Assembly: GCF_003952525.1 (NCBI RefSeq)
Contig: NZ_CP034451.1
Location: 3,162,001-3,226,000 of the forward strand
Reading direction: 5' to 3'
Source of the DNA: Mesorhizobium sp. M3A.F.Ca.ET.080.04.2.1
GTDB taxonomy: Bacteria; Pseudomonadota; Alphaproteobacteria; Rhizobiales; Rhizobiaceae
Length of the DNA: 64,000 bases
Position 1 is the first letter of the stretch; each line of letters opens with the position of its first letter. This document shows positions 3,197-6,738 of this stretch, one piece after another. The notes beneath the pieces are model-generated. The model made no database searches, was not told the DNA's origin, and saw only the letters and a list, made by a program, of their open reading frames with translations. The position numbers and the translations under genes are program-made.

Positions 3197-4288
3197 TCAC
3201 GCAGCGCCCTGCCGGATGGCGAGCGCCTCGCGCTTCATCGAGCGGCGCCACTCGACGGCGCCGGCAAGCCCGTGCAACACCGTCTCGGTCGTCGCCCAGT
3301 CGATGCAGCCATCGGTGATGCTTTGGCCATAGACAAGCGGCTTACCGGGCACGACGTCCTGGCGGCCGGCGACGAGATTGCTTTCGATCATGAGGCCGAT
3401 GATGCGCTCGTCACCCGCGGCAACCTGCCCCGCCACGTCGGCGGCGACCTTCGGCTGGTTCTCCGGCTTCTTGGCGCTGTTGGCGTGGCTGACATCGATC
3501 ATCAGCCGCGGCGCGACGCCGATGCGGGCGAGCTCGGCCGCGGCGGCGTCAACGCTTGCCGCATCGAAATTGGGCACAACGCCGCCGCGCAGGATGACGT
3601 GGCAGTCCTCGTTGCCGGTGGTCGCCGCGATGGCGCTGCGGCCGCCCTTGGTCACCGCCATGAAGTGATGCGGTTGGGCGGCCGACTTCACTGCCTCGCC
3701 GGCGATCCTGAGATTGCCGTCGGTGCCGTTCTTGAACCCGACCGGGCAGGAGAGGCCGGAGGCGAGCTCGCGGTGGATCTGGCTCTCGGTCGTGCGTGCG
3801 CCGATCGCACCCCAGGCGACGAGGTCGGCAATGTATTGCGGCGTCGTCATGTCGAGGAACTCGGTCGCCGCCGGCAGACCGAGATTGTTGACGGCGGAGA
3901 GCACGTTGCGCGCCATCCTGAGCCCCTTGTCGATGTTGAAGCTGCCGTCGAGGTCGGGATCGTTGATCAGGCCCTTCCAGCCGACCGTGGTGCGCGGCTT
4001 CTCAAAATAGACGCGCATGACGATCTCGAGCCGGTCGGCCAAGGCCTCGCGCAGCGCCGCCAGACGGCTGGCGTAGTCCACGGCGGCAACCGGATCGTGG
4101 ATGGAGCAAGGGCCGACGATGACGACCAGTCGATCGTCGGCCCCGGTCAGGATGGAATGGATGGCGTTGCGCGAGGCGGCAACGGTGCGCGTCGCCGTGA
4201 GTGAGCGCGGTATCTCGCGCATCACGTCGTCCGGCGTGCTCAGGACTTTGAGTTCGGTGACCCGAAGGTCGTCTGTGGTGGTCAACAC
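3197..4288 (-). CDS. aroG: 3-deoxy-7-phosphoheptulonate (DAHP) synthase, class I
   Basis: The first enzyme of the shikimate pathway, condensing phosphoenolpyruvate with erythrose 4-phosphate. It is 363 residues long and of AroG/AroF/AroH type: VVIVGPCSIHDP, MRVYFEKPRTTVGWKG, GARTTESQ, GFKNGT and the late MIDVSHANSAK metal-site region are all present. The start is GTG at 4288, since AGGAG is centred about 12 nt upstream (4298-4302) and the only upstream in-frame start (TTG at 4330) lies inside the terminator hairpin. The gene sits behind an aromatic-codon leader peptide and attenuator (4329-4455), so expression is expected to rise when charged Phe, Trp or Tyr tRNA is scarce. The sequence alone does not show which aromatic end product feedback-inhibits the enzyme. 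Confidence 0.95.
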   Translation of the reverse strand: MLTTTDDLRVTELKVLSTPDDVMREIPRSLTATRTVAASRNAIHSILTGADDRLVVIVGPCSIHDPVAAVDYASRLAALREALADRLEIVMRVYFEKPRTTVGWKGLINDPDLDGSFNIDKGLRMARNVLSAVNNLGLPAATEFLDMTTPQYIADLVAWGAIGARTTESQIHRELASGLSCPVGFKNGTDGNLRIAGEAVKSAAQPHHFMAVTKGGRSAIAATTGNEDCHVILRGGVVPNFDAASVDAAAAELARIGVAPRLMIDVSHANSAKKPENQPKVAADVAGQVAAGDERIIGLMIESNLVAGRQDVVPGKPLVYGQSITDGCIDWATTETVLHGLAGAVEWRRSMKREALAIRQGAA

Positions 4289-4328
4289 GGCTTTCTGCTC
4301 CTGGTTTAGGAGACCTGCCGGCTGAAAC

Positions 4329-4354
4329 AAAAAAGCCGCCAGGTCTGGCGGCTT
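4329..4354 (-). terminator. Attenuator terminator hairpin before aroG
   Basis: Read on the minus strand, AAGCCGCCA-GACC-TGGCGGCTT is a perfect 9-bp stem with a 4-nt loop followed directly by a run of six T (4334-4329). It lies between the leader-peptide stop and the aroG ribosome site, so it would stop transcription before the structural gene. Confidence 0.85.
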
Positions 4355-4377
4355 GTCGGATTTTTATGCTGCAATCT

Positions 4378-4455
4378 TCAGATCGAGCGCAATCCTCCCG
4401 CCGCCAGCGAGCTACCGTAGCTAAAGTACCAAAACGAGGCGGTCAGGTGGATCAT
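4378..4455 (-). CDS. Aromatic-rich leader peptide of aroG
   Basis: A 25-codon reading frame from the ATG at 4455 to TGA at 4378-4380, containing the codons for Phe-Trp-Tyr-Phe-Ser-Tyr at 4417-4434. An in-frame ATG at 4464 would add three residues but overlaps the -10 box. There is no ribosome binding site; the ATG at 4455 falls six nt after the -10 hexamer, so the transcript is probably leaderless, as in the trp leader of Sinorhizobium meliloti. Five aromatic codons in six, directly upstream of a DAHP synthase, are not expected by chance. Confidence 0.82.
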   Translation of the reverse strand: MIHLTASFWYFSYGSSLAAGGLRSI

Positions 4456-4461
4456 GCGGCT

Positions 4462-4490
4462 CATATAGTCGAAGTCGAGGCGCTTGTCAC
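4462..4490 (-). promoter_or_regulatory. Sigma-70-type promoter of the aroG leader
   Basis: Minus-strand GTGACA (-35, 4485-4490) and TATATG (-10, 4462-4467) are separated by exactly 17 nt. The predicted start falls at the leader ATG (4455). The -35 box overlaps the stop codon of the upstream gene, which ends at 4487. Confidence 0.7.
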
Positions 4491-4774
4491 GTGTCGGTAG
4501 GGGCTCGACTTGAAGTTTGTCTCGCCTGAACGTGGTTCAACAGTGAGACGACATATCGTTCCATCTCAAGCCTGCGAGCGGTATTGAGAACGCTTGTCCA
4601 CGTATCCTGCGGATCAGCACCGCGGGCGATCATGGCCGGCGCGTTGTGAAATGAGTCTGCAAGCATACGTGCTGTACGTAGTTCATCGGTCGCGCGAATT
4701 TCGACGAGGACGATGCCGAGAATCCTCAGGATATTTTCGTTCGTGATGGGTTGAGGATCACTCAATTGAGACAC
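4487..4774 (-). CDS. Hypothetical protein
   Basis: A 95-residue soluble, helix-rich protein that I do not recognise. Its ATG lies inside the 3' end of the gene at 4762-5040 (13-nt overlap), so the two are probably co-transcribed and translationally coupled. Base composition is visibly less GC-rich than that of aroG or the his genes, and the gene stops on the aroG -35 box. Together with the neighbouring toxin-antitoxin pair this looks like a small acquired insert. No domain can be assigned. Confidence 0.55.
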   Translation of the reverse strand: MSQLSDPQPITNENILRILGIVLVEIRATDELRTARMLADSFHNAPAMIARGADPQDTWTSVLNTARRLEMERYVVSLLNHVQARQTSSRAPTDT

Positions 4775-5040
4775 CTTTCTTTCGGTGCGGGCCTCGTCTC
4801 AGCTTGAAATGTGCTCGTGGCCTTGGGGAAACCAGATGCCACGACGAAACCAGTTGCCCATCCCAAATTCGGTATGACGTGATTTTGATCGAGATCATCC
4901 ATGTTCTTGATCATCTCGATGCTGACGACCTTTTGCACGGATCCGAAGGCTAGCGAGAACAGTTGTAGAGCGTCGGCTTCCGACCGCGCGGTGACGCCAA
5001 CCCCAAGATGGCCGCTTACCGTGATCCAATATGGGTGCAT
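4762..5040 (-). CDS. Hypothetical protein
   Basis: A 92-residue protein starting MHPYWITVSGHLGVGVTARS; no signal peptide or membrane segment is evident. I do not recognise the family. The gene overlaps the next one by 13 nt and ends 57 nt after the start region of the PIN toxin gene on the same strand. Its N-terminus resembles that of small proteins with an alternating beta-strand pattern, but that is only a visual impression. Function unknown. Confidence 0.55.
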   Translation of the reverse strand: MHPYWITVSGHLGVGVTARSEADALQLFSLAFGSVQKVVSIEMIKNMDDLDQNHVIPNLGWATGFVVASGFPKATSTFQAETRPAPKERCLN

Positions 5041-5097
5041 CGAGACATTCTCTTGTGGCGAGGGAACATGGGCGCTCTCGAGCCCGACATGCCCTGT

Positions 5098-5520
5098 TCA
5101 TGCAGTCCAGGGATCGAAAATTTCGATTCCAAAGCCTTCGAAATCCTTTGTGTTGCGCGTTGCCAAGGTGAGCTGCTGCGCAATCGCGGTGGCCGCGATC
5201 AGGCCGTCCATCGACGACAGACCGCGACCGCGGCGCTTGGCAAGCCCCATTAGGTCGCCCCAGGCCAACGCAACCGCTTCATCCACCGGCAAAACCCTCT
5301 GCTCGAAGCGCTGCGGCAAGTCCCGAGCGAGCCATTCAGCCAGTGCCTCGCGTTTGCGGCCGTCATCCATGAGGGCAACGCCGCGCCGGATCTCGGCGAT
5401 CGACACAACGCTGATGAACGAGCGGTCCTCGTCAAGCTCGTCCAGCCAACCCAACACGCGTGTGTCTGGAGCCGGCCTCGTCACTTCGGACAGGACATTC
5501 GTATCAAGCAGTATCCTCAC
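5098..5520 (-). CDS. PIN-domain toxin (VapC/FitB type)
   Basis: A 140-residue type II toxin, predicted to be a Mg-dependent ribonuclease. The PIN acidic residues are present: LLDTNVLSE at the N-terminus (Asp6), SIAEIRRG (Glu near 44), SSMDGLIAATA (Asp near 104) and TRNTKDFEGFG at the end. The start ATG overlaps the antitoxin stop by four nt, the usual coupled arrangement. It is likely co-repressed with its antitoxin at the promoter upstream of 5783. Confidence 0.9.
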   Translation of the reverse strand: MRILLDTNVLSEVTRPAPDTRVLGWLDELDEDRSFISVVSIAEIRRGVALMDDGRKREALAEWLARDLPQRFEQRVLPVDEAVALAWGDLMGLAKRRGRGLSSMDGLIAATAIAQQLTLATRNTKDFEGFGIEIFDPWTA

Positions 5521-5783
5521 AGCGGCAGGTCACGCGGCTCGTCGCGTTGACGCTCAAGGTTCAAATCGGAGCCGCGCAACGGCGACTCCAGCAGGAACTC
5601 AGCGAGGGTGCCTTTCCGTGCGGTCTTGCGCCGCCATTCGTCTACCGACACGACGACGACGCTTGGTTTGCCGTTTCGGGTGATCGTCTGCGGCGACGAT
5701 TGTGCCCGATCTATAACCTCCGAGAGCCGGGCTTTTGCCCCAGCGACCGTCCAGCTCACATCTTCTTTGGGTCCAGGCAGCAT
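5517..5783 (-). CDS. Phd/YefM-type antitoxin
   Basis: An 88-residue antitoxin beginning MLPGPKEDVSWTVAGAKARL and containing the Phd/YefM N-terminal DNA-binding pattern (AKARLSEVIDRAQSSPQTITRNGKPSVVVVS, in two parts around residues 14-44). The variable C-terminal half should bind the toxin. A longer frame extends upstream to 5888, but 5783 gives the normal family N-terminus. It overlaps the toxin gene by four nt. As in the family, it probably represses its own operon. Confidence 0.85.
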   Translation of the reverse strand: MLPGPKEDVSWTVAGAKARLSEVIDRAQSSPQTITRNGKPSVVVVSVDEWRRKTARKGTLAEFLLESPLRGSDLNLERQRDEPRDLPL

Positions 5784-5943
5784 TTCAATCTCATGCCTAT
5801 TCTGACCATCCTGACTATATGGGAATAGCGATGTCGCGGCAACAGGGCTTACAGGGCCCAGGACGCCCTGGCAGGCGCGCGAGGCCAATCACTGCTGCAC
5901 GGACGGCCGAACTGCTTGTGGACGCGAGGTTACTCGGTTGCAC

Positions 5944-6738
5944 CTACTCGCCGATCACGCCGGCGATGTTCTGGTCGTAGTCGACCAGCGACCCCGTCAT
6001 GACGCCGGCCTGCGGGCTCAGCATATAGGTGATCAGCCGGGCAAGCTGCGCAGGCTTCACCAACTGGCCCATCGGCTGAGCGGCCTCGGCCTTCGCCAAC
6101 CAGTCGTCCGGCGCGTCATGCCACTTCTTCTGCACGATGTCCTCGCCTTCGGTGTCCATCCAGCCGGGCAGCACGGCGTTGCAGCGGATGCGGTTGCGCC
6201 GATGGGAACTCGCGACATTCTTGGTCAAGGTCATCAGCGCGCCCTTGCTGGTCGAATAGGCCGTCAGAAAGGACTGGCCGGCATGGGCAGACATCGACAG
6301 CACGTTGACGATCGAGCCCGGCGCCTTGCGCTCGAGAAGATGCGCGACCAGGCCCTGCATCAGGAAAAAGGGGCCGCGCACATTGGTGTCGAATATCTGG
6401 TCGAAAAGCTCCTCTGTGGTCTCGACCAGCGAGCCGCGCGCCGAGGTGGCGGCGGCGTTGACGAGCGCATTGACGGTGCCGAAATGCGCGAGCGCCATGG
6501 CGACGGCGCGCTTGCAGTTGGCGACCTTGGCGACGTCGGCGCTGATGAAGATGGCGTCGACGCCTTTCTTCTTCAGCGCGGCGACCGCCTTGTCGCCCTT
6601 TTCCTGCGAGCGGCCGACCAGCGCCAGTGCCCGGCAGCCCTCGTCGGCAAGCGCCTCGGCGACGGCGAAGCCGACGCCCTGCGCGCCGCCGGTGACGATG
6701 GCACGCGTTTCTGAATTGCGACCGGCCAAACCGCTCAT
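5944..6738 (-). CDS. Short-chain dehydrogenase/reductase (SDR)
   Basis: A 264-residue classical SDR: the cofactor motif TGGAQGVG is at residues 16-23, NAAA near 93-96, and the catalytic Tyr160 and Lys164 are in YSTSK, with serines at 147/149. NAD(H) use is probable from the family. It is the last gene of the operon starting at 10862 and follows the IolG-like dehydrogenase by 29 nt, so it probably oxidises or reduces a downstream product of the imported polyol. The exact substrate is unknown. Confidence 0.88.
   Translation of the reverse strand: MSGLAGRNSETRAIVTGGAQGVGFAVAEALADEGCRALALVGRSQEKGDKAVAALKKKGVDAIFISADVAKVANCKRAVAMALAHFGTVNALVNAAATSARGSLVETTEELFDQIFDTNVRGPFFLMQGLVAHLLERKAPGSIVNVLSMSAHAGQSFLTAYSTSKGALMTLTKNVASSHRRNRIRCNAVLPGWMDTEGEDIVQKKWHDAPDDWLAKAEAAQPMGQLVKPAQLARLITYMLSPQAGVMTGSLVDYDQNIAGVIGE

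Follow-up and report, generated by a model that had tools for sequence, protein, structure and literature searches.

Attenuation in front of a DAHP synthase gene is known from the aroR-aroF leader of Corynebacterium glutamicum, for which Neshat et al. 2014 is reportedly the source study. In this system, a leader peptide with the residues Phe-Tyr-Phe lies before the DAHP synthase gene and starvation is reported to relieve attenuation (PMC11802643); the same leader appears as a prediction in PMC4046766. In rhizobia, the trpL-trpE(G) region of Sinorhizobium meliloti is described as a leaderless attenuator whose RNA begins at the leader ATG, with mutually exclusive terminator and antiterminator structures; the terminated RNA is a small leaderless mRNA, and rnTrpL and peTrpL are reported to act in trans (PMC10117765, PMC7298713). 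Leaderless starts are described as common in Bradyrhizobium, with 192 start sites located exactly on a start codon (PMC4842269). A prediction study in Shewanella lists aroF with an "attenuator sensing tyr-tRNA", and also aroH, citing E. coli work (PMC2659441), so that attenuation of a DAHP synthase gene has, on this entry, already been suggested in a gammaproteobacterium. The accessible part of PMC5343134 deals with trp and pheA attenuation, TrpR and TyrR only.

We analyzed a window of 64 kb (the whole stretch of DNA under study) from Mesorhizobium sp. M3A.F.Ca.ET.080.04.2.1, in which an element at positions 4329-4490 of the minus strand presents, from 5' to 3', a putative promoter, a leader frame, a segment able to pair in two ways (segment 2), a terminator and aroG. 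The leader frame (4378-4455), conserved in relatives, comprises 25 codons and a TGA, MIHLTASFWYFSYGSSLAAGGLRSI, with its ATG at 4455-4453 and its stop at 4380-4378. Segment 1 (4438-4453; GAUCC, CCUG and CCGCC) is, according to folds and group statistics, the 5' strand of a predicted protector helix. The putative regulatory codons TTT TGG TAC TTT AGC TAC (F-W-Y-F-S-Y; 4417-4434), five of the six aromatic, are followed by segment 2 (CTGGCGGC; 4400-4407), which begins 12 nt past the start of the last aromatic codon and is predicted to pair either with segment 3, as an antiterminator, or with segment 1, as the protector. A second switch arm, GGAUU (4391-4395), finds its partner in AAUCC (4362-4358) in the predicted antiterminator or in GAUCC (4453-4449) in the predicted protector. 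Segment 3 (GCCGCCAG; 4345-4352) is the left arm of the terminator and the 3' arm of the predicted antiterminator. The intrinsic terminator (4329-4354) reads AAGCCGCCA-GACC-TGGCGGCTT, with a 9-pair stem at 4354-4333, a second copy of CTGGCGGC at 4342-4335 and a T run at 4334-4329 (six T's at the 3' end); a mechanical scan called a terminator-like site of 9 pairs at 4354-4333. Downstream, AGGAG (4298-4302) is the likely ribosome-binding site of aroG (3197-4288, minus strand; inferred GTG start at 4288-4286), the product of which is a class I DAHP synthase (PF00793, E 4.4e-91; TIGR00034, 516.8 bits for a cut-off of 173.2). The aromatic frame of 25 codons, the pairing segment, the T-run terminator and the GTG-start aroG listed in an earlier note on this DNA were thus all recovered in place.

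The same note had proposed a promoter with 17-nt spacing whose start falls on the leader ATG. The two boxes are GTGACA (4485-4490, minus strand) and, 17 nt after it and 6 nt before the ATG, TATATG (4462-4467, minus strand). Counted from the leader ATG, GTGACA occupies precisely -35 to -30 in 30 of 33 Mesorhizobium loci, and TATATG occupies precisely -12 to -7 in as many (30 of 33); upstream of -36 the sequence is barely conserved and varies freely even within Mesorhizobium. A strict sigma-70 scan of the locus called no promoter, because its rule requires a final T in the second hexamer and TATATG ends in G. The proposed promoter thus holds as a conserved pair of boxes in Mesorhizobium, while the strict scan does not call it, and its assignment rests on conservation rather than on that scan. 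Similar boxes at similar distances were present, with exceptions, in most of the printed loci from Bradyrhizobium and other alphaproteobacteria; in Xanthomonadaceae, a TATCA-like box ends 8-9 nt upstream of the ATG, and Burkholderia-type loci have a TATAAA-like box farther upstream. The promoter geometry in the window is compatible with an RNA that begins at the leader ATG, as we predict, at or within a base or two of its A; such a start would imply translation without a ribosome-binding site.

Several observations concern the surroundings of the element. In several Mesorhizobium loci (L007-L010), the -35 box is immediately preceded by the end of a frame whose final part reads DYDQNIAGVIGE or almost so. 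The window has a like frame, recognized by eye, that ends at 5944, and the approximately 1.4 kb that separate it from the promoter (4491-5943) carry a Phd/YefM antitoxin gene and a PIN-domain toxin gene, as if inserted beside the promoter. Four loci of the same genus (L011, L019, L023 and L030) have an extra 50-60 nt or so between the terminator and the aroG ribosome-binding site. The aroG match contains one internal stop in genomes G212, G187, G291, G323, G313 and others, which may simply reflect a match that extends beyond the normal stop codon of the gene.

This element is, with high probability, a ribosome-mediated transcription attenuator controlling a second, class I DAHP synthase. The reading draws on sequence and folds, that is, on the anatomy described above, conservation, the link to aroG in an order-wide sample, the codon-to-segment distance, complementarity and rare-codon bias. 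Its rarity was assessed with a filter for an ATG frame having at least 5 aromatic codons in 7, followed by a perfect GC-rich terminator no more than about 110 nt past the stop. Exactly one match was found in the 64-kb window, the element itself, and none in 40 first-order random windows, which rules out a chance origin. In the whole genome (6.17 Mb, one contig), a covariance model of the element, R1, scored it at 111.5 bits, and the next best match reached 23.9 bits, on the terminator part only. A second genomic copy was rejected, since one of the four weaker matches comes from the reverse orientation of the window's terminator, and the remaining three resemble bare terminators or chance. The aroG protein also has a single match in this genome at E up to 0.001.

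We then looked at relatives in a set of 110 loci, 30 from the same genus (the window's own included) and the best 80 of at least 589 relatives. In this set, an aromatic leader and a terminator passing the filter were found upstream of aroG at 87 loci. Represented among these 87 are Mesorhizobium, Bradyrhizobium, Devosia, Methylosinus, Phenylobacterium, Oxalobacteraceae, Bordetella, Burkholderia and its relatives, Cupriavidus, Dyella, Rhodanobacter, Xanthomonas and Stenotrophomonas. Enterovibrio, Photobacterium, Methylotenera and Nitrosomonas are among the 23 loci that failed the filter; at least one of the 23 has almost no upstream sequence (L064), and a few carry part of the element, such as L062, with a leader whose distance from stop to terminator lies outside that required, or L060 and L074, with a terminator and no leader passing the filter. 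Forty of the 87 elements, chosen by eye for diversity, were aligned (A1) and served to build R1, which contains no aroG sequence. All 44 loci returned automatically by R1 searches precede a class I aroG, at least one of them (the window's own) being also a training row. Another 40 matches, mostly weaker and chosen by hand, divide into 25 before aroG and 15 elsewhere. Altogether, at least 151 elements selected with the filter precede aroG in alpha-, beta- and gammaproteobacteria, at least 137 of them distinct although not independent, many coming from close relatives, including 33 from Mesorhizobium. Five further aroG loci (L160, L167, L168, L188 and L190) carry a leader and fail the terminator part of the filter. 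The attenuator proposed in the earlier note is therefore largely supported by relatives, and it extends beyond the Rhizobiales.

The association with aroG was also evaluated in two genome samples. In a sample of the order (297 genomes), class I aroG is present in 39 genomes and a full-length R1 match of at least 46 bits in the same 39; adjacency to aroG was checked on the loci for 38 and through coordinates for the 39th (G041). In a sample of the phylum (398 genomes), aroG was found in 225 genomes and a verified element in 49 of these: all 23 alphaproteobacterial genomes with aroG, and 26 of the 202 others, leaving 176 of the 202 with none verified. By family, elements were found in 6 of 6 (f89), 11 of 11 (f86), 6 of 10 (f109) and 2 of 3 (f114) aroG genomes. 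Weak elements may be missed in these large samples because Infernal's stricter filters were used there. The 46-bit threshold is not fully clean outside the order, since a match of 47.4 bits (G674) precedes a pheA-like gene. Overall, aromatic codons, switch segment and terminator are all conserved in three proteobacterial classes and accompany aroG in 39 of 39 genomes of the order sample, in agreement with the conservation expected in the earlier note.

Two other groups of leaders emerged from these searches. The next full-length matches in the order sample, at 38-42 bits (G150, G303 and G269, family f41), lie before a tyrosyl-tRNA synthetase gene (PF00579 plus S4) and consist of a leader, M.K..A.FVYFYYVT.IPAA*, and a terminator (L157 1232-1350, L158 1209-1326 and L159 1226-1344). 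These leaders are possibly a Tyr-sensing tyrS attenuator in the same order, and no account of a tyrS leader of that kind was found in the open-access literature. Separately, Phe-rich leaders lie before two genes (L166 1367-3367, plus strand; L172 59-2008, minus strand) that encode proteins with chorismate mutase, prephenate dehydratase and DAHP synthetase I domains in one chain, as judged by Pfam.

With segment 2 taken as the best complement that a search downstream of the codons could find, its distance from the codons is nearly fixed. Segment 2 begins 10-14 nt after the first base of the last aromatic codon in 117 of 137 elements, with a mode of 12 (85 of 104 without Mesorhizobium). In the 33 Mesorhizobium elements this distance is 12 nt in 28, 13 nt in four and 9 nt in one (L005), and it is kept whether the leader is long (FWYFSYGSSL) or short (YWYFSSSL) and whether the last aromatic codon is Tyr or Phe. 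A distance of this order matches the stretch of mRNA that a ribosome occupies 3' of its A site, so that stalling on the last aromatic codon would leave segment 2 just free.

With respect to the amino acids sensed, Phe, Trp and Tyr codons occur together in 117 of the 137 leaders, and the remaining 20 have Phe and Tyr only. With 386 of 836 aromatic codons, Phe is the commonest class, and it is written mainly with the codon that aroG avoids: TTT accounts for 311 of 386 leader Phe codons and for 78 of 810 Phe codons in the aroG genes of the same loci. This composition bears on the strongest alternative, which we regard as doubtful but with a real chance of being right: an attenuator as proposed whose effective signal would be a single amino acid, most likely Phe, with little contribution from its Tyr and Trp codons. 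Besides the abundance and codon bias of Phe and the 20 leaders without Trp, a precedent speaks for it, since only Phe limitation, and not Tyr, is reported to act on the Phe-Tyr-Phe leader AroR of C. glutamicum (PMC11802643). However, Tyr and Trp stand beside Phe in the other 117 leaders, in the window it is a Tyr codon (Y13) that lies 12 nt from segment 2, and in Mesorhizobium the distance of 12-13 nt (L005 excepted) goes with either Tyr or Phe in last place. The best reading of these sequences remains a classical attenuator, predicted to be leaderless in alphaproteobacteria, that would sense any of the three aromatic tRNAs.

At fixed positions, the run carries F, Y or W, and more rarely S or N, depending on the species, which fits codon sensing rather than a fixed arrest peptide. 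Arrest by the nascent peptide, for which TnaC is a precedent, would mean that the leader peptide itself stalls the ribosome, with a free aromatic amino acid or another ligand as its signal. The peptide tail (LAAGGLRSI, LAEEGLRSP or PLADREG) is strongly conserved within lineages, which speaks for this mechanism, but tails differ between lineages. In Mesorhizobium, moreover, the tail overlaps the switch segments and its third positions are nearly fixed among the few distinct frames available (7 and 14), as expected for a constraint at the RNA level. Given this overlap and the exchanges within the run, we consider peptide arrest very unlikely.

Codon-sensing attenuation also makes predictions for RNA folding. 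Without a ribosome, the whole RNA folds at -49 kcal/mol (z -3.1) into a predicted 14-pair protector, a small hairpin and the terminator; in the protector, segment 1 pairs with segment 2, the GGG next to it and GGAUU. From segment 2 to segment 3 alone, a long antiterminator is predicted (-30.4 kcal/mol, z -4.2 in the window), with CTGGCGGC and GCCGCCAG as outer arm, GGAUU and AAUCC as inner arm, and the leader stop in the apical loop. The window terminator folds at -15.4 kcal/mol (z -4.9). Pairing of the segment with the left arm of the terminator, as proposed in the earlier note, is predicted in relatives as well: when the right terminator arm is left out of minimum-energy folding, a complete outer helix results for 135 of 137 elements. 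The antiterminator surpasses the terminator in predicted stability in 131 of 137 (medians -24.9 and -15.3 kcal/mol), and the complementarity of segment 2, the best complement found by the search, exceeds 95% of shuffles in 64 of 81 elements. For the inner helix, the advantage over shuffled middles is slight (median z -1.2, with a positive z in 16 of 137). At full length, equilibrium folds favour the terminator in 53 of 81 elements and the antiterminator in 28, and the window gives -32.1 kcal/mol with the terminator against -30.4 for the antiterminator alone. With the terminator favoured at equilibrium, antitermination would have to be kinetic, set by the order of synthesis, as in other attenuators.

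A long foldable RNA of this stability (-49 kcal/mol, z -3.1) could also be taken for an aptamer, or for the target of an RNA-binding protein, that senses the amino acids with the frame left untranslated. This is extremely unlikely in our view, as the start, the frame, the stop and the aromatic content are kept while nucleotides drift between lineages. Furthermore, Rfam (release 15) gave no match over the whole window at the gathering threshold, and among 8 representative loci searched at E up to 1, its four matches do not fall on an element. As for a hairpin that merely terminates the upstream gene beside a coincidental aromatic frame, it is hardly credible, even though intergenic terminators are common and an upstream frame ends right before the -35 box in L007-L010, since it is already contradicted by the conservation, with 0 matches in 40 random windows, an association with aroG in all 39 genomes of the order sample that have the gene, variable sequence beyond -36 and near-fixed codon-to-segment spacing.

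Returning to the attenuator, we examined whether its helices co-vary. In the terminator, one column pair changes between G-C and A-U in 18 of 40 sequences. In the helix of segments 2 and 3, one pair changes between C-G and U-A in 7 of 40, a count reached by 55 of 500 shuffles, and the covariation score of this helix is reached by 107 of 500. Covariation is modest because the arms hardly vary. In group-wise consensus folds, two-sided pair changes are rare (2 pairs over 8 groups), and strong covariation is consequently not claimed. A suggestive case is provided by L050 and L053, which differ from L048 in segments 2, 3 and 4 together.

The alternative pairing of segment 2 with ACCGCC, before the codons, is more restricted. 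Median z values of the protector against shuffles are -1.9 in Mesorhizobium, -2.2 in Bradyrhizobium and -2.8 in Xanthomonadaceae, compared with -0.7 in Burkholderiaceae and the rest (hardly above shuffles) and 0.0 in Oxalobacteraceae (not above). In the window's own 56-nt 5' part, the protector is no stronger than shuffles (z 0.4). By a crude measure, segment 1 pairs with segment 2 better than shuffles (at most 10 of 200) in 19 of 81 elements; a fold-based measure gives 111 of 137 for 75.3 expected, with 8 individually convincing, and a wider measure shows a gain in some lineages only. The ACCGCC pairing of the earlier note is therefore distinct in three groups, Mesorhizobium, Bradyrhizobium and Xanthomonadaceae; in other lineages it is weak or does not exceed shuffles.

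We infer the following course of events, from the start site through stalling and antitermination to a response to Phe, Tyr and Trp individually. With Phe-, Tyr- and Trp-tRNA all charged, the ribosome would reach the UGA and sit on the tip of the would-be antiterminator. Segment 2 would then be limited to refolding on segment 1, segment 3 would pair with segment 4, and RNA polymerase would stop in the T run. Speaking against this step, the window has 19 nt between the end of segment 2 and the stop codon, so that a ribosome at the stop would lie over the central part of the antiterminator and not over segment 2. If any one aromatic tRNA ran short, the ribosome would stall in the F-W-Y-F-S-Y run, covering segment 1 and leaving segment 2, 12 nt onward, free. 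Free segment 2 would pair with segment 3 during synthesis, the terminator would be blocked and aroG would be transcribed.

A class II DAHP synthase is present in 289 of the 297 genomes of the order sample, including all 39 with aroG; none of the 39 is among the 8 genomes without it. Because every aroG genome also carries the class II enzyme, aroG looks like a spare isozyme, induced by shortage, beside a nearly universal enzyme. In physiological terms, class I aroG would be an extra in 39 of 297 genomes, each with its switch. If the reading is true, it provides a regulator for the entry step of the aromatic pathway in many rhizobia, Burkholderiales and Xanthomonadaceae, and the swapping of F, Y and W at a near-fixed distance from the switch offers a natural test set for multi-codon attenuation. 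A more ambitious proposal, speculative and rather unlikely as a whole, is that of one leader family across alpha-, beta- and gammaproteobacteria, tied to class I aroG, that would act as an OR gate reading three charged tRNAs and switch on a spare DAHP synthase in cells that also have class II, and whose terminated leaderless RNA of about 127 nt, or its peptide, might also act in trans, similar to rnTrpL and peTrpL.

In the open-access literature, we found no description of an aroG leader of this type in proteobacteria, and the main text of Naville and Gautheret 2010 (PMC2965389) contains no aroG, aroF, aroH, DAHP or "aromatic". The suggestion that an aroG leader had not been described holds to that extent for proteobacteria, but C. 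glutamicum has a known leader before a DAHP synthase gene. The Shewanella aroF entry, in the accessible part of its source, gives no leader resembling the Mesorhizobium element (PMC2659441).

Among known systems, C. glutamicum aroR-aroF is the nearest published case, likened here on the basis of its description: it likewise joins an aromatic-codon leader to a DAHP synthase gene, and it differs in belonging to an actinobacterium, in the three aromatic residues named, without Trp, and in a reported response to Phe but not Tyr. S. meliloti trpL shares with the aroG leader a rhizobial host, a leaderless RNA and exclusive pairings, the last two predicted here, whereas it is described with Trp codons only, before trpE(G), and with a peptide not conserved between genera apart from Trp. 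Phe-rich leaders before pheA and pheS, which in E. coli are presumably pheL and pheM, also combine an aromatic-rich leader with a GC-rich terminator and score about 36-47 bits with R1; they differ in controlling prephenate dehydratase or Phe-tRNA synthetase. The aroG elements of alphaproteobacteria, Burkholderiaceae and Xanthomonadaceae mostly lie at 65-113 bits, far above the pheA/pheS type, and the weaker f86 aroG elements fall within its range. In enterobacteria, multivalent leaders of the ilv and thr type sense several amino acids with one leader, and belong to another pathway with other sequences. Taken together, the kind of mechanism proposed is well known, and what appears to be new is this proteobacterial aroG family, its unusually tight conservation and its probable link to a spare isozyme.
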